DNA of 40,997 bases from Anaerolineales bacterium (GCA_020061145.1 JAGUYX010000108.1:1-40997); one strand, 5' to 3'. Numbered from the stretch's first letter, positions 23,017 through 31,024 are shown. Numbers and translations are program-made. Notes: a model not told the origin generated them from the letters alone.

Positions 23017-24051
23017 TTATACCGGCAGCTCGATGCGAATCAGGCAGTGATCCGAGGCGTGCTGGCCGGTTTGCTCAACCAGTGGAAAACGCGGGAAATT
23101 AAAGCTCACCCGCTTCGGGTCTGGATCATCCTCATGGCGGAATATGCGTGTAGTCAGGGGATTGCGCTTGCCGGAAGGGTAATAACCGTTAAATCCGATG
23201 CCGCCGCGTTCGATCTGAGGTTGAAAACCGCGCTGGATGACATCATCCGCCAGGGAGGGTGAAAGCAGCAGATAATCGATCTGGCTGGCCTGGTTGCGCC
23301 CGCGATACCAGTAAGTCCAGCGTTCATCTTCCGGCAACAGGTCAACGGCGTTGAACAGATCGCTCCCTTCGACCAGGGGTTGCAGCCAGGGAGAAAGAGG
23401 CTGGTCGTTCAGGTCTCCCAACACCACGAAGCGGCTGGTCTGATAACGGCTGGGTGAAAACCGCTGGCGCAGAATGTTCTGTACCGCCACTGCCTGACCG
23501 TGACGGCGGCGATTGGCGCGCTCGGTTTCCGCCGGATTATCGCTCTTGGTAAATTTCGACTTGAAGTGATTGATGAACAGGTGTAGTTTACGCGTTCCGC
23601 TGGAATTGGCCGCCACAGTGACTTCCAGGCAGTCCCGACTGAACACCCGCCGTCCATTTTCATCCACATCGTCGATATGGCTGCGCACAGACAGGATCTC
23701 CCGGGTGCTTAAAATACCTACGTCGATCTGGCGAAAATCATACGAATCGATCAATATGGTGTACGGATAATACGCCCCTAGAAATGCCGTGTTGAACAGG
23801 CGTAACGCCAGCAGGCTTTCCACTTCGCACAGGCAAAGGATATCCGGCAGGCCTTCTTTTTGGATTACTCCCGCCGCCAGGGAGGTCTGTTCCGGATTAA
23901 ATGGCTGAAATAAACCTGTATTATTGACCGGCAAAAATCCCCACTCCGGGTCGGTCAGCAGGCTGCTGCCGAACATGTCTCCCGGATAACGCCTGCCAAA
24001 GCGATAACGCAGGAACAGGTTATTGACATTAAAAAAAGCCAGGGAGGTCAC
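23017..24051 (-). CDS. Endonuclease/exonuclease/phosphatase-family protein
   Basis: The protein has 344 residues of the EEP fold. Recognisable active-site strands are FNVNNLF (near residue 7), LCEVES (catalytic Glu, about 75), NHFKSK (His), VVLGDLNDQ (Asp-Asn) and ASDHCLIRIEL at the end (Asp-His). The family cleaves phosphodiester bonds in DNA, RNA or phospholipids; the substrate here is unknown. There is no signal peptide. GTG at 24051 starts five bases after the lapA-like stop and has no clear ribosome site, so translation is probably coupled. It is the last gene of the yebC-ruvCA-proC cluster. Confidence 0.85.
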   Translation of the reverse strand: MTSLAFFNVNNLFLRYRFGRRYPGDMFGSSLLTDPEWGFLPVNNTGLFQPFNPEQTSLAAGVIQKEGLPDILCLCEVESLLALRLFNTAFLGAYYPYTILIDSYDFRQIDVGILSTREILSVRSHIDDVDENGRRVFSRDCLEVTVAANSSGTRKLHLFINHFKSKFTKSDNPAETERANRRRHGQAVAVQNILRQRFSPSRYQTSRFVVLGDLNDQPLSPWLQPLVEGSDLFNAVDLLPEDERWTYWYRGRNQASQIDYLLLSPSLADDVIQRGFQPQIERGGIGFNGYYPSGKRNPLTTRIFRHEDDPDPKRVSFNFPRFPLVEQTGQHASDHCLIRIELPV

Positions 24052-24056
24052 CGGGT

Positions 24057-24431
24057 TTAACCCTGCCAGAGTTTCTTACCGCTTTCCTGGCCTGTATCAA
24101 CCGTCTCACTGGCTGGCTTTTCGACTTCATGCAGGGCAGCCAGGCGTTTTTGCAGGTTGTCCGTCTGCATTTTTTGATCCGCCAGGCTTTTTTCGAGCTC
24201 TTCGACGCGTTTTTGCTGGCTGCGCAAATTCAATCTGGCGCGGATCAGGGCGGGCAGGGAGGCGAGGAAACTGATCAACGCGCCGAGAGCCAGGGTGAAC
24301 AAGATAATCAACGCCAACGAGCCTTCTAATTGAAAAGTCAGCAGGCGGATTTCGGTTTGCGCATTGTTTTGTAAGGCAAATAAAATCGCAAAGGCTGCCA
24401 CAACCAGGGAAAGAAAGAGGAATATTTGCAT
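24057..24431 (-). CDS. LapA-domain (DUF1049) membrane protein
   Basis: The protein has 124 residues. Two membrane helices (about 3-19 and 38-62) flank the FALQNNAQTEIRLLTF loop typical of LapA/YciS-type domains. A charged coiled coil (about 65-102) and a polar tail follow. Related proteins help envelope lipopolysaccharide assembly in proteobacteria; the role in other phyla is unknown. GGGAGG lies six bases before ATG. It is in the proC cluster. Confidence 0.8.
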   Translation of the reverse strand: MQIFLFLSLVVAAFAILFALQNNAQTEIRLLTFQLEGSLALIILFTLALGALISFLASLPALIRARLNLRSQQKRVEELEKSLADQKMQTDNLQKRLAALHEVEKPASETVDTGQESGKKLWQG

Positions 24432-24461
24432 TGATAGCCTCCCAAAACCTACGGTATAAGT

Positions 24462-25346
24462 TCAGGCGATTTCATCTTTGGGCGGGCGGGATTTGGCGGA
24501 TTTGCCCAGCTCCTGTGAACGTTCATAGGCTGCCCAGATGGCGCGAGACAGCGCGGTGCGGAAACCGGCTTTTTCCAGATAATACAGCGCTGCCGCTGAA
24601 GTGCCACCCGGCGAGGTGACCTGGTTCCGTAGCTGCGCCAGGTGCATCACGCTGCCATTTTCCTGCATGTTTTTCAGGTAAAAATCCACCGAACCGCGTA
24701 CAGTCTGGGTGACCAGCCGTTCGGCAATTCGCCGGGGAAAGCCCAGATGGACGCCGGCATCCACCATGGCTTCCATGAAAATGAAGACATACGCCGGGCC
24801 GGTGCCGGAAAGCGCAGTCGCCATATCGAGGTACATTTCCTCTTCCATGTAAATCTGCTCGCCCAGCGCTCCCAGGATACGCCGCGCCATCTCCTGCTGT
24901 TCCTCCGAGACCGTTGGGGAGGACGTCCAAACGGTAATCCCCTCGCCGATCTGGGCAGGTGTGTTGGGCATGGCGCGCACAATGGAGGTATGCCCCAATC
25001 CCAGAGCGATTTTTTCCAGCGGCGCTCCTGCCACAATCGAAAGCACCAGCGATGCGGGCTGGATAACGCCATGTAAACTGTGTAAAACCTGATCTAATAA
25101 TTGTGGTTTGATCGAAAGCACCACCACATCCGCCTGGGCGGCAGTTTCGGCATTATTCATGGATACCTGGACGCCGAATTTTTCCGCAAGCTGATCCAAA
25201 CGTCGCTGGCGTGGACCGGCTGCCATCAGGGATTCAGCCTTGGCCACCTGCTGGCGAATTAAACCGGCGATCATCGCTTCTGCCATTACACCGGGGCCGA
25301 TAAATGCAATTTTTCGCTGATCGAACAACAAGACCTCCGAAATCAC
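24462..25346 (-). CDS. proC: Pyrroline-5-carboxylate reductase
   Basis: The protein has up to 294 residues. A Rossmann NADPH-binding motif (KIAFIGPGVMAEAMIAGL) opens the domain. The family signature follows near the C-terminal part (GSVMHLAQLRNQVTSPGGTSAAAL), with catalytic-site ATALSGTGPAYVF. It makes the last step of proline synthesis. The GTG at 25346 overlaps the ruvA stop as GTGA. A TTG at 25328 with GGAGGT four bases upstream is an alternative that would give the usual short N-terminus. The exact start is open. Confidence 0.93.
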   Translation of the reverse strand: MISEVLLFDQRKIAFIGPGVMAEAMIAGLIRQQVAKAESLMAAGPRQRRLDQLAEKFGVQVSMNNAETAAQADVVVLSIKPQLLDQVLHSLHGVIQPASLVLSIVAGAPLEKIALGLGHTSIVRAMPNTPAQIGEGITVWTSSPTVSEEQQEMARRILGALGEQIYMEEEMYLDMATALSGTGPAYVFIFMEAMVDAGVHLGFPRRIAERLVTQTVRGSVDFYLKNMQENGSVMHLAQLRNQVTSPGGTSAAALYYLEKAGFRTALSRAIWAAYERSQELGKSAKSRPPKDEIA

Positions 25347-25924
25347 GGTGAAAAATAAGATAATGCCAGGCGCAGCCGGGTTTCCAGGTCTCCCGGCGTC
25401 TCACGGGGGATGTTCTGAATGGCTGCCTGCGCTTCCACCACACTATACCCCAGAGTTGTCAACGCTTCCAGTACCTCACTGTCCACATCGCTCAATCGGC
25501 CGGTGGCTTCTAATTCTTCTAACCCGGGTTTGATCCGGTCCTGCAGGTGTAACAGGACTTTTTGGGCTGTTTTCCTGCCCACGCCAGGTACACGGGCGAA
25601 TATTTCTGCCTGTTCGTTGAAAATGGCGCGCCGGATTGCTTCAGGAGACAGGCTGGATAGAATCGCCAGTGCCAGCCGCGGCCCCACCCCATTCACGCCC
25701 AGTAACATACCAAACAGATCGCGACCTTCCTGGGTTTCAAAACCATACAATGCCAGCACATCCTGGCGGACCACCAGATAGGTGAACAGGCTCAATTGCT
25801 CACCCGGGTGAAGGCGACCGAGTACGTCTGCCGGAGCGAATATTTCTACGCCAACATTGCCAACCATCAATATGATTGCTTCACGTGTGGTGCGGGCGAC
25901 TTTCCCGCTCAGGGATACAATCAT
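25343..25924 (-). CDS. ruvA: Holliday junction DNA helicase subunit RuvA
   Basis: The protein has 193 residues. An N-terminal OB fold is followed by two helix-hairpin-helix motifs (GVNGVGPRLALAIL and RVPGVGRKTAQKVLLHL). The C-terminal domain III (ALTTLGYSVVEAQAAI) contacts RuvB. It binds four-way junctions during recombination. Its start overlaps the ruvC stop by 4 bp. No ruvB lies in the window. Confidence 0.96.
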   Translation of the reverse strand: MIVSLSGKVARTTREAIILMVGNVGVEIFAPADVLGRLHPGEQLSLFTYLVVRQDVLALYGFETQEGRDLFGMLLGVNGVGPRLALAILSSLSPEAIRRAIFNEQAEIFARVPGVGRKTAQKVLLHLQDRIKPGLEELEATGRLSDVDSEVLEALTTLGYSVVEAQAAIQNIPRETPGDLETRLRLALSYFSP

Positions 25925-26430
25925 CGATTCTCCGAGTGGTTCATGGCGCGTTGTATCGGTCCGCGGTGGTGGATATGGCAGATGGCAACCGCAAGTGCGT
26001 CTGCGGCGTCATCCGGACGGGGAATTTCTGGAAGATTTAATAAAATCCGCACCATCTCCTGTACCTGACGTTTGTCTGCTTTGCCATAACCCACTACCGC
26101 CTGTTTGACTTCCAGCGGCGTGTATTCTCCGACTTCCAGGCCTGCCATGGCCAGGCAGAGCAGGGTTACGCCTCGCGCCTGCCCGACGGACAGAGCTGTT
26201 TTCACATTACTCTGGAAAAATAATTTCTCCACCGAACCGGCCATGGGGCGGTGGAGCGAAATAATGTCGTTTAACTGCGAGTAAAGCCGCTGTAACCGTT
26301 CCGGCATGGGCAGATCTGCGGGGGTAAGGATTACACCGTAACCCTGCGCTTCCAGACTGCCGTTTTCAAGTTCACGGACCAGCCCGTAGCCGGTGGTAGC
26401 CGTGCCTGGATCAATGCCGAGGATAAGCAT
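25921..26430 (-). CDS. ruvC: Holliday junction resolvase RuvC
   Basis: The protein has 169 residues. The acidic catalytic pattern is intact: GIDPGTATTGYG (Asp at 6), EKLFFQSN (Glu), and RPDDAADALAVAICH (two Asp). It cuts Holliday junctions processed by RuvAB. It follows yebC by 5 bp and overlaps ruvA, which is the common yebC-ruvC-ruvA order. Confidence 0.96.
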   Translation of the reverse strand: MLILGIDPGTATTGYGLVRELENGSLEAQGYGVILTPADLPMPERLQRLYSQLNDIISLHRPMAGSVEKLFFQSNVKTALSVGQARGVTLLCLAMAGLEVGEYTPLEVKQAVVGYGKADKRQVQEMVRILLNLPEIPRPDDAADALAVAICHIHHRGPIQRAMNHSENR

Positions 26431-26435
26431 ACCGG

Positions 26436-27191
26436 TCAGGCGGCTTCGAGTTGTGCGATAGCCTCATCGGTAATCAACAGGTTGGTATACACCTCGGACA
26501 CATCATCCAGATCTTCCAGGTTTTCGATCACCTTCAAAACCTGCAAGGTTTCTTCTAAAGGCAGCTCAAGCTCGTTATTCGGGATCATTTTCAGCCCTGC
26601 CTCTTCCGGCTGGATTTTAGCAGCCCGCAACGCGTCGGCAATAGTTTTAAAATTATCTACCGGCCCAATAATCACGATTTCGTCATCTTCGAATTTGACA
26701 TCGTCTGCGCCGGCTTCGACGGCAATTTCGAAAACCCGGTCGGGATCCAGTTTTCCCTGGGGAAAGGAGAAATAAGCCACCCGATTGAATTGCCAGCTCA
26801 CTGAACCGCCTTCTCCCATACTGCCATTAAACCGGTTGAGAATATGGCGGATTTCGGCGACGGTGCGGTTGCGATTGTCGGTGACGCAATCGATCAATAA
26901 AGCCACGCCATGTGGTGCATAACCCTCGTACATCACTTCTTCAAACGCGGCCGCGTCTTTATCTTCACCGGTGCCTCGCCGGATGGCGCGTTCGATGTTT
27001 TCTTTGGGCATGTTATTATTGCGCGCTTTTTCCACTGCCAGCCGTAGACGGAAATTAGTGTCCACATCGCCCCCTCCTTCGCGAGCAGCCAGGACAATTT
27101 CCCGCGCCAGGCGGGTGAAGACCTGGCCGCGCCTGGCGTCATTGGCGCCTTTTTTTCGTTTAATCGTGGACCATTTTGAATGTCCAGACAT
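26436..27191 (-). CDS. yebC: YebC/PmpR-family protein
   Basis: The protein has 251 residues, normal for the family. It opens with the hallmark MSGHSKWSTIKRKKGANDA and has the conserved EVMYEGYAPHGVALLID segment and SVSWQFNRV. The family was described as DNA-binding regulators, and members are also linked to translation of proline-rich stretches. AGGAGA lies before ATG. It heads the ruvCA-proC cluster and has its own promoter. Confidence 0.95.
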   Translation of the reverse strand: MSGHSKWSTIKRKKGANDARRGQVFTRLAREIVLAAREGGGDVDTNFRLRLAVEKARNNNMPKENIERAIRRGTGEDKDAAAFEEVMYEGYAPHGVALLIDCVTDNRNRTVAEIRHILNRFNGSMGEGGSVSWQFNRVAYFSFPQGKLDPDRVFEIAVEAGADDVKFEDDEIVIIGPVDNFKTIADALRAAKIQPEEAGLKMIPNNELELPLEETLQVLKVIENLEDLDDVSEVYTNLLITDEAIAQLEAA

Positions 27192-27393: not shown

Positions 27394-27402
27394 TGCTATA
27401 AT
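27394..27402 (+). promoter_or_regulatory. Extended -10 promoter of a small leaderless gene
   Basis: TGCTATAAT is a perfect extended -10 element. The predicted start, near 27409, coincides with an ATG. Confidence 0.6.
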
Positions 27403-27408
27403 TTTTTA

Positions 27409-27528
27409 ATGATGGGAGAATGTTTAACTTGTCCTGTGTTTCCAGTCAATGGGACAGCTGAAGGATTGTTCGAGGATATGGCTGCCAACTCTGATGACGC
27501 GCCAGAACAAACCACCCAACGAGTCTGA
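27409..27528 (+). CDS. Candidate small protein (39 residues), leaderless
   Basis: The open frame starts six bases after a perfect TATAAT and ends inside a strong intrinsic terminator, so promoter, frame and terminator form one compact unit of about 145 nt. The predicted peptide begins MMGECLTCPVF with one CxxC pair and ends in an acidic, polar stretch. It has no membrane segment and matches no family I know. A second ATG follows immediately. The alternative is a non-coding RNA of the same length. Confidence 0.45.
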   Translation: MMGECLTCPVFPVNGTAEGLFEDMAANSDDAPEQTTQRV

Positions 27529-27554
27529 ACGCTCTGCGTTCCGGCTCGTTTTTT
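27518..27554 (+). terminator. Strong intrinsic terminator
   Basis: AACGAG (27518-27523) pairs with CTCGTT (27545-27550), and the inner GAACGC (27527-27532) pairs with GCGTTC (27536-27541). A symmetric 3-nt internal loop lies between them. A run of six T follows. It separates the small gene from the riboswitch downstream. Confidence 0.88.
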
Positions 27555-27601
27555 GTTAAACATCTCCTGTTTTCGGCCAGTACAAATCCCACATATAACC
27601 G

Positions 27602-27680
27602 AAAAGGCAAACCCATCGCGAGGTGGGGGCGCAAAGTCATGGGTCTGTAATCGCAGCAGATCGCCAGACTGCCGAAGAAC
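27602..27680 (+). ncRNA. Cyclic-di-GMP-I (GEMM-I) riboswitch aptamer
   Basis: The consensus blocks occur in order. AAAGGCAAACC (27602-27612) is followed by a hairpin CCCATC-GCGA-GGTGGG with a GNRA tetraloop, then GGCGCAAAGTC. A second arm with GGGTCT/AGATC pairing closes by GTC/GAC, and the 3' block TGCCGAAG (27670-27677) pairs back to GGCA. This matches the class-I aptamer that binds cyclic di-GMP. It sits 176 bp upstream of the secreted subtilase start, on the same strand. Downstream, ACCCGC (27679-27684) can pair with GCGGGT (27705-27710) and may form part of the expression platform. A weak -10-like TATAAC lies at 27594-27599. Confidence 0.85.
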
Positions 27681-27720
27681 CCGCTCCGACATTATTCTTT
27701 TTTCGCGGGTCCCATCATGC

Positions 27721-27734
27721 GAAAGGAGGTGATC
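27721..27734 (+). promoter_or_regulatory. Extended anti-Shine-Dalgarno complement in the protease leader
   Basis: GAAAGGAGGTGATC is complementary over 14 nt to the standard bacterial 16S rRNA 3' end. It lies 40 nt after the aptamer and about 120 nt before the protease start codon. The only start codon right after it (GTG at 27729) overlaps it. It may be a ribosome standby site or a sequestered element of the expression platform. Confidence 0.5.
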
Positions 27735-27815
27735 GAGCAGTCTGGTATCGCTGGTTCAGGGTTATGCTCAACCGTCGATTTGCCAGGCTCTCCTCAAATA
27801 AATTCTGGGAGAAAA

Positions 27816-27860
27816 ATGTCATTACATCATTCCAGTTTACAAGGAGAAAATAAGAGATGA
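27816..27860 (+). CDS. Possible 14-residue leader peptide overlapping the protease start
   Basis: ATG at 27816 has GGGAG at ideal spacing (GGGAGAAAA-ATG). The frame encodes MSLHHSSLQGENKR and stops in TGA, which overlaps the protease ATG as ATGA. The same frame is open back to a GTG at 27729. It could couple translation to the protease, but chance is not excluded. Confidence 0.3.
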   Translation: MSLHHSSLQGENKR

Positions 27861-30800
27861 GGAAGGTTTTTAATATACTGATTGTGCTGGTGTTATTGCT
27901 TTCTTTGACCCCAGCCGCATTTGCCCAGGATGCCGGACCGGAGGGACTGGAACGCTCTCTTCCAGCCTCGGTTGCAGATATGGCTCTGGATGAACCTTTG
28001 ACAGCTCAGTTTGACCTGCAGACCGGTCTGGACGCCAGCCTGTCTGGCGCCAGCGGCACTACCGGCGTGATTGTCCGCTTACGGGCTGATTCTGTCGCCG
28101 AGCGCAATATCCGCGGCCGTTCTGCTCAACGCATCGGACGCATTCTGGATCTCACCCAGGACCGGCTGTTAGAGCGTATCCTGGCTCTCGATCCGGCTGC
28201 TGAGGTTCTGGGCCGGACGCAGATCGTGCTCAACGCCCTCTACCTGCGGGTAGACGGCGCTGTGCTGGATGCCATCGCCCGGGATGCTGCCGTACAGCGA
28301 GTTGCGCCTCTCGGCACCTACGAGCTGGATCTTTCCGAAACCGTGCCTTACATCGGAGCCAGCGCCGTTCAGGGGATGGGTTACACCGGTGCAGGCGTAC
28401 GGGTAGCCGTGCTGGATAGCGGTGTCGATTACACCCATGCCAACCTGGGCGGCTCGGGCGATCCTGCGGAATACGCAGCCAATGATCCCACTGTGATCGA
28501 AGCCGGCACATTCCCCACCGCCAAGATCGTAGGTGGGTACGACTTCGTAGGTAGCGATTGGCCGAATGCTCCGGAAGCGCCAGACCCCGATCCCCTGGAT
28601 GATGGCCCGGAGGCCGGGCACGGCACGCATGTCGCCGATATCATTGGCGGTATGGATGGTGTGGCTCCGGATGCCGATATATATGCGGTCAAGGTTTGTT
28701 CCTCGGTATCCACCTCCTGCTCAGGTTTTGCGTTGATCATGGGCATGGAATTCGCAGCCGACCCGGATGGCGATGGCGATCCCGCGGATCACGTGGACCT
28801 GATCAATATGTCCCTGGGTTCATCCTACGGGCAACCCTTCGATGACGATCTGGTCCTGGCAGTTGATAATGCCACGATGATCGGCATCCTCACCGTCGCT
28901 TCGGCAGGCAACAGCGCCAACAAACCCTATGCGACCGGCACCCCCGCAGGCGCACAGTCAGCGCTCTCTGTGGCGCAAACCAGCGTCCCCAGCGCTTTCC
29001 AACCTTTCCTGACGGTAAACGCACCTGAAGCGTATGCCGGCGATTATGTGGCCGTATTCCAGCCCTGGTCGGTGTACCCAACCGCCGTAATCAGCGCTCC
29101 GATGCAGTATGGTGATGGCGCAGGCGGCAACCTGTTAGGCTGTGATCCGTTCACGGCTGGTTCTTTGGCAGGCAAGATTGTCCTGGTCGATCGTGGCGCT
29201 TGTAACTTCACTTTGAAGATCTCCAATATCTCCCAGGCAGGTGGTCTGGCAGGTATTATTGGTCTGGTAGCCCCGGGCGACCCCTTCGAGGGTGGCGACG
29301 GCGGCGACCGGCCGATCGATATCCCCGGCTACATGGTCAGCCAGGCGGTCTCCAACACCTTTAAGGCGGCTATCGACACAGGTGAATCGATGATGACGAT
29401 CGATCCGGAGTACGGATTACCCCTGGTAGGCTCCATGGTGGGTAGTTCTTCGCGTGGACCACGCAACCAGGATTCGATGCTCAAGCCTGAAATCGGCGCA
29501 CCCGGCGCTTCTGTTTCGGCGATCGCCGGAACCGGTACAGAGACCGGACCGTTTGGCGGTACCTCCGGCGCCGCTCCGATGGTCACCGGCTCAGCAGCCC
29601 TGTTGCTGCAGGCATACCCGGATCTCACCCCGGCGGAAGTTAAAGCCCGCCTGATGAACAATAGCGAGACCGACATCGTCACGGATAAGCTCTCCAACCA
29701 GCCCGCTCCCATCAGCCGCATTGGCGGCGGCGAAGTGCGTGTCGATCGCGCTGTGCTCGCTCCGGCAGCTGCCTGGGATGACGAATCGTTGCTTGGTTCG
29801 TTGAGTTTCGGTTTCATGGATGTCAGCAAGAGCACAGTCAATCTGTTCAAAACTGTGCGCGTACGCAACTACACCGACGAAACCATCGTTTACAACGTCA
29901 CTCCAACCTTCCGCATGGAAGATGATATGCTCAACGGAGCGGTGGAAGTTCAAGCGCCTCAACAGGTAACTGTGAAAGGCGGCAAGGATGCCACCTTTAC
30001 CGTCAAGCTGACCATCCACGGCGAGTTGTTGCGGGGTAACTATATGAACTCCGGCAGCCAGGGCGCCAATCCCGCCGGGCTGGATCTCAACGAATACGAT
30101 GGTTATCTCATCCTGGATGACGGTTCCCACCCGATCCACATGCCCTGGCATATTCTGCCCCGCAAAGCGGCAGAAGTGATTGCTCGCCCGGACTTGAAGT
30201 TCAACAAAGAAGGCGTGGCTATGCTGAATGTGGTCAACCGCGGTGTGGGCACTGCCCAGATCGATGCCTACTCTTTGCTGGCTGTCAGCGATAACATCCC
30301 CTCGGGTGGTCTCGGTCAGCAAATGCCCGTTCCGGATCTGCGTGCCGTTGGTGTGCAGACCTTCCCGGTGCCGGCTGGCTTCTGTAGTGCGGACCCCTCG
30401 TTCCTCTGGGCGTTTGCAATCAACACCTGGGAGCGACAGTCGCACCTGCTCCCGGTCAGCCATTGGGTCTACCTGGATACAAATCAGGATGGTACGTTTG
30501 ACTATGCGGTTATCAACCGTGACGTCAGCCTGACTAACCTGACCGACGGGCGGCAGCTTACCTGGTCAGTCGATCTTTCAACCGGAGCTGCGGAGGCTTT
30601 CTTCTTCGCCGAACATGCCACCAATACCGGAAATACCATCCTGTATATCTGCGGTGAGCAGATCGGTCTTTCTGGTGGGGATATGCTCAACACCTTCGTG
30701 GATGTGGCGGTGGAAGCCACCGACTTCTACTTCGGTGGACCTGGCGACTTCGTCGATGGCATCACCATCACACCGCTGGGCGAGCGCTACTTTGGTCTCT

Positions 30801-30967
30801 TCAGCGATGTTGAAGGCAAACAGAAGACCTTCGTCGACGTCTACGACTTCGGTCCGAAATACAACCAGGATCTGGGATTGCTGCTTATCACCAATGGCGA
30901 CCGGGGAACCGGCGCACGTGGTGGAGCCACCCAGGAAACTGAAGCGGTGATCGTTTTCGCCCGCTAA
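27857..30967 (+). CDS. Secreted subtilisin-like serine protease (S8) with PA domain
   Basis: The protein has 1036 residues. A signal peptide (about 1-24, cleaved after AFA) precedes an inhibitor-like propeptide (about 65-150). The S8 catalytic domain has Asp187 in VAVLDSGVDYTH, His255 in GHGTHVADI, oxyanion Asn352 in ASAGN and Ser570 in GGTSGAAP. A PA (protease-associated) insert lies at about 395-505 within the catalytic domain. The C-terminal 400 residues are beta-rich and resemble Fn3-like and adhesive extracellular domains. It has no membrane anchor or sorting signal. AAGGAG lies ten bases before ATG. The cyclic-di-GMP aptamer in its leader suggests control by cell lifestyle. It ends at a bidirectional terminator. 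Confidence 0.95.
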   Translation: MRKVFNILIVLVLLLSLTPAAFAQDAGPEGLERSLPASVADMALDEPLTAQFDLQTGLDASLSGASGTTGVIVRLRADSVAERNIRGRSAQRIGRILDLTQDRLLERILALDPAAEVLGRTQIVLNALYLRVDGAVLDAIARDAAVQRVAPLGTYELDLSETVPYIGASAVQGMGYTGAGVRVAVLDSGVDYTHANLGGSGDPAEYAANDPTVIEAGTFPTAKIVGGYDFVGSDWPNAPEAPDPDPLDDGPEAGHGTHVADIIGGMDGVAPDADIYAVKVCSSVSTSCSGFALIMGMEFAADPDGDGDPADHVDLINMSLGSSYGQPFDDDLVLAVDNATMIGILTVASAGNSANKPYATGTPAGAQSALSVAQTSVPSAFQPFLTVNAPEAYAGDYVAVFQPWSVYPTAVISAPMQYGDGAGGNLLGCDPFTAGSLAGKIVLVDRGACNFTLKISNISQAGGLAGIIGLVAPGDPFEGGDGGDRPIDIPGYMVSQAVSNTFKAAIDTGESMMTIDPEYGLPLVGSMVGSSSRGPRNQDSMLKPEIGAPGASVSAIAGTGTETGPFGGTSGAAPMVTGSAALLLQAYPDLTPAEVKARLMNNSETDIVTDKLSNQPAPISRIGGGEVRVDRAVLAPAAAWDDESLLGSLSFGFMDVSKSTVNLFKTVRVRNYTDETIVYNVTPTFRMEDDMLNGAVEVQAPQQVTVKGGKDATFTVKLTIHGELLRGNYMNSGSQGANPAGLDLNEYDGYLILDDGSHPIHMPWHILPRKAAEVIARPDLKFNKEGVAMLNVVNRGVGTAQIDAYSLLAVSDNIPSGGLGQQMPVPDLRAVGVQTFPVPAGFCSADPSFLWAFAINTWERQSHLLPVSHWVYLDTNQDGTFDYAVINRDVSLTNLTDGRQLTWSVDLSTGAAEAFFFAEHATNTGNTILYICGEQIGLSGGDMLNTFVDVAVEATDFYFGGPGDFVDGITITPLGERYFGLFSDVEGKQKTFVDVYDFGPKYNQDLGLLLITNGDRGTGARGGATQETEAVIVFAR

Positions 30968-30987: not shown

Positions 30988-31024
30988 AAAAATCGTGGGA
31001 CTGATTGCCAGTCCCACGATTTTT
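30988..31024. terminator. Bidirectional terminator between the protease and the lipoprotein gene
   Basis: A 16-bp stem (30988-31003 with 31009-31024) includes an A-run on the left and a T-run on the right, with a 5-nt loop. It lies between convergent genes and can serve both. Confidence 0.92.

Follow-up and report, generated by a model that had tools for sequence, protein, structure and literature searches.

The window analysed in this study, that is, the whole stretch of 40,997 nucleotides from an Anaerolineales bacterium, harbors a compact class-I cyclic-di-GMP (c-di-GMP) aptamer, a leader with a Shine-Dalgarno (SD)-like element, and a gene for a putatively secreted S8 (subtilase) protease. 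The features of this locus are as follows.

27597 to 27677, plus strand: class-I c-di-GMP aptamer, compact subtype (RF03167, RF01051, and loop/receptor covariation in the class)
27606, plus strand: G corresponding to G20 of Vc2, a ligand contact (RF03167 alignment)
27633, plus strand: A corresponding to A47 of Vc2 (CGCAAAG in the window against the RF03167 consensus CGCGAAg)
27664 to 27672, plus strand: CCAGACTGC, aptamer 3' strand from the P3 end through C92, with nine Watson-Crick pairs to 27737-27745
27672, plus strand: C that probably corresponds to C92 of Vc2, a ligand contact (position obtained by counting along the conserved 3' strand CUGCCGAAG)
27697 to 27706, plus strand: CTTTTTTCGC, pairing with 27719-27728 in the predicted fold
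27722 to 27734, plus strand: SD-like element AAAGGAGGTGATC with complementarity to the 3' end of 16S, 122 nt ahead of the ATG
27737 to 27745, plus strand: GCAGTCTGG, candidate competitor strand for the aptamer 3' strand (pairing, MFE fold)
27841 to 27846, plus strand: ribosome-binding site AAGGAG, 10 nt ahead of the protease ATG (direct reading)
27857 to 30967, plus strand: secreted S8 protease of 1036 aa whose catalytic domain carries an inserted PA domain (PF00082, PF02225)
30990 to 31024, no strand assigned: strong hairpin with a T-run after the protease gene (direct reading, AAATCGTGGGACTGATTGCCAGTCCCACGATTTTT)

With reference to profile searches, the protease open reading frame (ORF) matches PF00082 (E 6e-44) and, for the inserted PA domain, PF02225 (E 1.6e-11), and its best solved relative is 8jmw (E 1.3e-37). 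The catalytic motifs VAVLDSG (D187), GHGTH (H255) and GTSGAAP (S570) are all present, together with the oxyanion asparagine in SAGNS (N352), and the hydrophobic, signal-like N-terminus suggests that the protein is secreted. A genome-wide scan with a subtilase-based protein pattern gave no match. The preliminary description of this DNA had reported an aptamer followed by the gene of a secreted S8 protease whose catalytic triad is intact; both points hold, as the 1036-aa ORF begins 179 nt after the aptamer end and the three catalytic residues are in place. Since the ruvC-ruvA-yebC operon lies upstream on the opposite strand, and the gene is followed by the hairpin with its T-run and, beyond it, by a convergent neighbour, we read the protease gene as a single-gene unit. 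No promoter for the riboswitch unit was found by a simple scan. The divergent stretch at 23017-27191 (minus strand) comprises ruvC, ruvA, yebC, proC-like and LapA-domain genes. Between yebC and the riboswitch there is possibly a small gene, namely a 38-aa ORF (MGECLTCPVFPVNGTAEGLFEDMAANSDDAPEQTTQRV) at 27412-27528 on the plus strand, preceded by TATAAT at 27397-27402 and followed by a hairpin with a T-run at 27519-27554.

Identity and ligand pocket of the aptamer

Scanning the whole window with cmscan returned two matches above the curated cut-offs, one tRNA and the c-di-GMP-I-GGC family RF03167, the latter full-length at 27597-27677 on the plus strand with 68.1 bits (E 3.6e-14) against a gathering cut-off of 59 bits. 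In the whole-genome search, RF01051 was detected at 27596-27676 (plus strand, E 3.4e-12), and this is the sole site in the 3.15 Mb genome for either family. The ordered blocks from which the preliminary description had recognized a class-I aptamer (GGCAAACC, the GCGA-capped P2, CGCAAAG and TGCCGAAG) are all found in the window at the positions it gave; the two covariance models corroborate this class assignment, and the Rfam comparison it had proposed yielded a significant match, RF01051 scoring 64.2 bits where the cut-off is 35 bits. Nine GGDEF domains are encoded in the same genome, so the bacterium probably makes c-di-GMP.

The window aptamer shares with GEMM-Ia (RF01051) the fold, the G20/A47/C92 pocket and a score far above the cut-off, but differs from it in that P2 is capped by GCGA instead of GAAA and P3 is short, lacking the 11-nt tetraloop receptor. 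This combination agrees with the trend of the whole class, in which the receptor, recognized by a loose pattern, accompanies 109 GAAA loops and is missing from 17, while other GNRA loops occur seven times with it and 35 times without it (Fisher p 1.4e-16, a value that ignores relatedness). Such covariation of loop and receptor argues for real tertiary folding of the class aptamers.

In the Vc2 structure, the pocket is formed by G20, A47, A48 and C92 (PMC3764141; PMC4744006), where G20 contacts the ligand (PMC3764141; PMC4744006) and A47 stacks between its two guanines (PMC3764141). The window displays G at 27606, A at 27633 and C at 27672, matching the G20, A47 and C92 contacts of the RF01051 class. 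The "GGC" in the name of RF03167 presumably denotes G at the A47 position, as read from the name and from the family consensus, which has G there. Though the score passes the RF03167 cut-off, the base at this diagnostic position is A in the window, as it is in approximately 165 of the 174 RF03167 matches of the class, and the variant label was therefore rejected at face value. Despite RF03167 giving the best covariance-model score, the A at position 47 leads us to call the pocket canonical and to read the aptamer as a canonical class-I c-di-GMP aptamer that merely happens to score best with RF03167, which also makes the Rfam label misleading for the aptamers of this class.

In GEMM-Ib riboswitches, a change of G20 to A leads to c-AMP-GMP binding. 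A published report agrees with this effect of the G20 change (PMC9481103), and membership of GEMM-Ib was likewise rejected, as G and not A stands at 27606. That the aptamer senses another molecule, either as a GGC variant or as a c-AMP-GMP riboswitch, is thus very improbable: the top-scoring Rfam family speaks for it, but the A at the variant position, the G at G20 and the additional RF01051 match all speak against it.

Secreted proteases behind class-I aptamers

RF03167 matches were found in 73 of the 396 genomes of the class. For the survey of downstream genes, we took the strongest RF03167 matches from a class-wide search and from a search among relatives, and assigned to each of the 158 loci the longest downstream ORF starting at most 900 nt away. 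S8 proteases made up 32 of these 158 genes (12 + 20, by Pfam), and five papain-like, three trypsin and three M6 proteases were also noticed. In 47 of the same genomes, 260 S8 genes occur in approximately 200 Mb, i.e. about 0.14% of genes with the gene number estimated from genome size, so that 0.2 S8 genes would be expected among the 158; the enrichment is approximately 150-fold, although the loci are mutually related and a binomial figure for it is not to be taken literally. Judged against this background, the pairing of aptamer and S8 gene in the class is no accident, and the recurrence in related genomes that the preliminary description had suggested looking for is evident.

The association is carried by the compact aptamer type, S8 genes following 17 of 41 compact (non-GAAA) loci against 11 of 111 GAAA-type loci (p 3e-5). 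An exact 39-base DNA pattern of the compact type, queried in named GTDB genomes, recovered 25 loci, mostly from Chloroflexota (Anaerolineales, Anaerolineae), with S8 proteases making up 12 of the 23 downstream proteins, plus two trypsin and two M6 proteases; several of these loci lie on contigs already present in the 158-locus survey, as judged by equal lengths, making this a partial replication.

The nearest orthologs of the window protease with a full upstream region, from genomes G445 (49%) and G436 (43%), have no aptamer. Inheritance of the riboswitch together with this protease was therefore rejected for these two; the pairing in the window appears not to be old, and the riboswitch has probably joined S8 genes more than once.

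Leader architecture and the predicted sign of the switch

The close relatives of the window leader display a composite order of compact aptamer, intrinsic terminator and SD-like GGAGGTG, the last approximately 85 nt upstream of the real start. Of 26 compact-type leaders, 25 use the aptamer 3' end itself as the 5' arm of the T-run hairpin, an arm that is typically CAGACYGCCGAA and spans C92 and the P3 end; the one miss (L272) shows by eye a GCCGCC...GGCGGC hairpin with a T-run. These terminators comprise 20 distinct arm pairs with covarying changes on both sides, one pair appearing as UA nine times, CG seven times and UG three times, and others as GC/AT and AT/GC. The claim is restricted to the compact type, as across all loci of the class such shared-strand terminators are just moderately above chance (39 of 173 against 37 of 865 shuffles, 4.3%). 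Since the terminator hairpin would destroy the ligand pocket, ligand and terminator would be mutually exclusive, and the architecture predicts that c-di-GMP gives read-through. In such ON switches, bound c-di-GMP would keep the 3' strand with C92 and the P3 end inside the aptamer, the terminator would be blocked, and the protease gene would be transcribed.

The third part of the composite leader is the SD-like element. Its version in the window, AAAGGAGGTGATC, occurs once only in the genome and is a stretch of 13 bases complementary to the usual 16S 3' end. In the relatives, the T-run is directly followed by the element, which in most cases stands 75-145 nt upstream of the start codon. GGAGGT/C or AAAGGAGR is present in 26 of 28 compact-type leaders, the window counted and some of them near-duplicates, against 1.1 expected from dinucleotide shuffling; in one (L100), the counted match lies at the aptamer end and another GGAGGTG lies further downstream. 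A wider count gave 20 of 33 compact-type leaders against 4 of 37 GAAA-type leaders.

The real start codons of the relatives possess their own SD, separate from this element. In the window, the element is not closely followed by a start codon, and the related leaders lack one at a spacing that an SD could use (in two of them a start codon lies 1-4 nt away), which led us to reject the element as the start of a leader peptide. A GTG frame at 27729-27860, overlapping the ATG, is open for 43 codons; it is not claimed as a leader ORF, because such openness arises in about 13% of cases by chance and the frame stops after five codons in the one relative compared (G179). Being a leader SD that serves no start codon, AAAGGAGGTGATC fits the sequence definition of a STAB-SD. 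The STAB-SD of Bacillus thuringiensis cry3A is a non-initiating SD that blocks RNase J1 (PMC4113751). The two elements are alike in lying far upstream of the start codon, but the element described here follows a riboswitch, and in relatives a terminator as well, and its stabilizing role is suggested by analogy. A conserved SD-like sequence beside variable helices would want a constant partner, for which the 16S anti-SD is the obvious candidate; by acting like a STAB-SD, the element would probably dock the 30S subunit without starting translation and so stabilize the read-through mRNA.

The window leader departs from this scheme. The aptamer and the SD-like element are retained, but the U-tract terminator is replaced by a candidate competitor strand of 9 bp beyond the SD-like element. 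GCAGTCTGG and CCAGACTGC form nine perfect base pairs, a length that shuffling the downstream leader reached 28 times in 5000, and the competitor would thus target the strand of the aptamer that the relatives' terminators also use, with no T-run after it. Neither a scan nor a search for hairpins that involve the aptamer strand detected an intrinsic terminator in the window. The T-run of CTTTTTTCGC is placed where relatives have the terminator T-run, and its modelled pairing with GCGAAAGGAG (27719-27728) buries the SD-like element whether or not the aptamer strand is included in the model. In simple folds, neither the SD-like element nor the ribosome site was predicted to change with the ligand.

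Taken together, we consider it likely that, in this Anaerolineales-type member of the Chloroflexota, a secreted S8 protease is under the control of a canonical class-I c-di-GMP riboswitch, the window leader being a member of a compact-aptamer type that recurs before such proteases in this lineage. In the window, the terminator arm and U-tract would have been swapped for the competitor strand at 27737-27745, and competition for the aptamer strand would give the same ON sign, with the effect falling on RNA folding near the SD-like element and not on intrinsic termination. For the window taken alone, this sign is somewhat more probable than not, and against the model count the missing U-tract terminator and the burial of the SD-like element in both folds.

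The same two features are what would be expected if c-di-GMP were still bound and the expression platform had decayed, leaving the gene unregulated. Such cases exist: in Bc1 of B. thuringiensis, a conserved c-di-GMP-I aptamer binds its ligand while expression is unchanged (PMC11218506). Bc1 resembles the present system in its class-I aptamer, long leader and terminator control, and differs in having two terminators and a gene unresponsive to c-di-GMP. Nevertheless, the pocket and helices of the window aptamer are intact and the competitor strand reaches the very strand concerned at a length seldom met in shuffles, which makes decay improbable.

One precedent is known for a protease gene governed by a c-di-GMP riboswitch of class I. 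For PPEP-1 (CD2830) of Clostridioides difficile, low c-di-GMP raises the protease, which releases adhesins (PMC11477304). In both systems the riboswitch precedes a secreted protease gene; PPEP-1 is a metalloprotease turned OFF by c-di-GMP and serves surface release in a pathogen, whereas the window encodes an S8 protease with a predicted ON switch in a member of the Chloroflexota. An OFF switch in the window, with c-di-GMP lowering the protease in favour of release from surfaces, would follow this precedent (PMC11477304) and would accord with the loss of the relatives' terminator. We regard it as unlikely, because, wherever the platform of a compact-type relative can be read, the terminator 5' arm lies on the ligand-contacting strand, which gives ON, and the window's candidate competitor uses that strand too.

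Returning to the preferred ON reading, the purpose would be extracellular protein digestion in a sessile state of high c-di-GMP. The preliminary description had named both protein scavenging and biofilm release; since the relatives' terminators predict that c-di-GMP raises the protease, release is the less likely of the two. More broadly, and only tentatively, as a view we hold at somewhat less than even confidence, the Anaerolineae may possess a c-di-GMP-driven extracellular-protease regulon built on the composite leader, with its strand-sharing terminator and conserved non-initiating ribosome-docking SD, of which the window would be a derived version working by competition around the SD-like element.

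Most discussion of c-di-GMP concerns its role in switching motility, matrix and adhesins, and Chloroflexota are abundant in sludge and sediments. The class-wide protease link suggests that the sessile state of Chloroflexota includes switching on external protein digestion. No report of an aptamer-subtilase link in Chloroflexi/Anaerolineae was found in the literature searched, which was largely that outside subscription journals, and the composite leader with its protease regulon may be the new part. The approximately 40 riboswitch-protease pairs form a ready set for examining what the far-upstream SD does and which sign and ligand the switches have.

Several other arrangements were noticed among the surveyed loci. 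On one short contig (L249, G436:C535, 1-5045), c-di-GMP-I aptamers alternate with S8 genes. Tandem aptamer pairs at most 260 nt apart are common in the class (G237:C132, G309:C82, G351:C1, G280:C4, G298:C64, G306:C38, G027:C1 and G213:C1), with one run of three in G027, and the window holds a single copy. In Cohnella and Paenibacillus (L254, L265, L269, L275), the same compact core precedes very large proteins with signal-like starts; these loci have a separate hairpin with a T-run, which does not reuse the aptamer strand, and three of the proteins contain RHS repeats.
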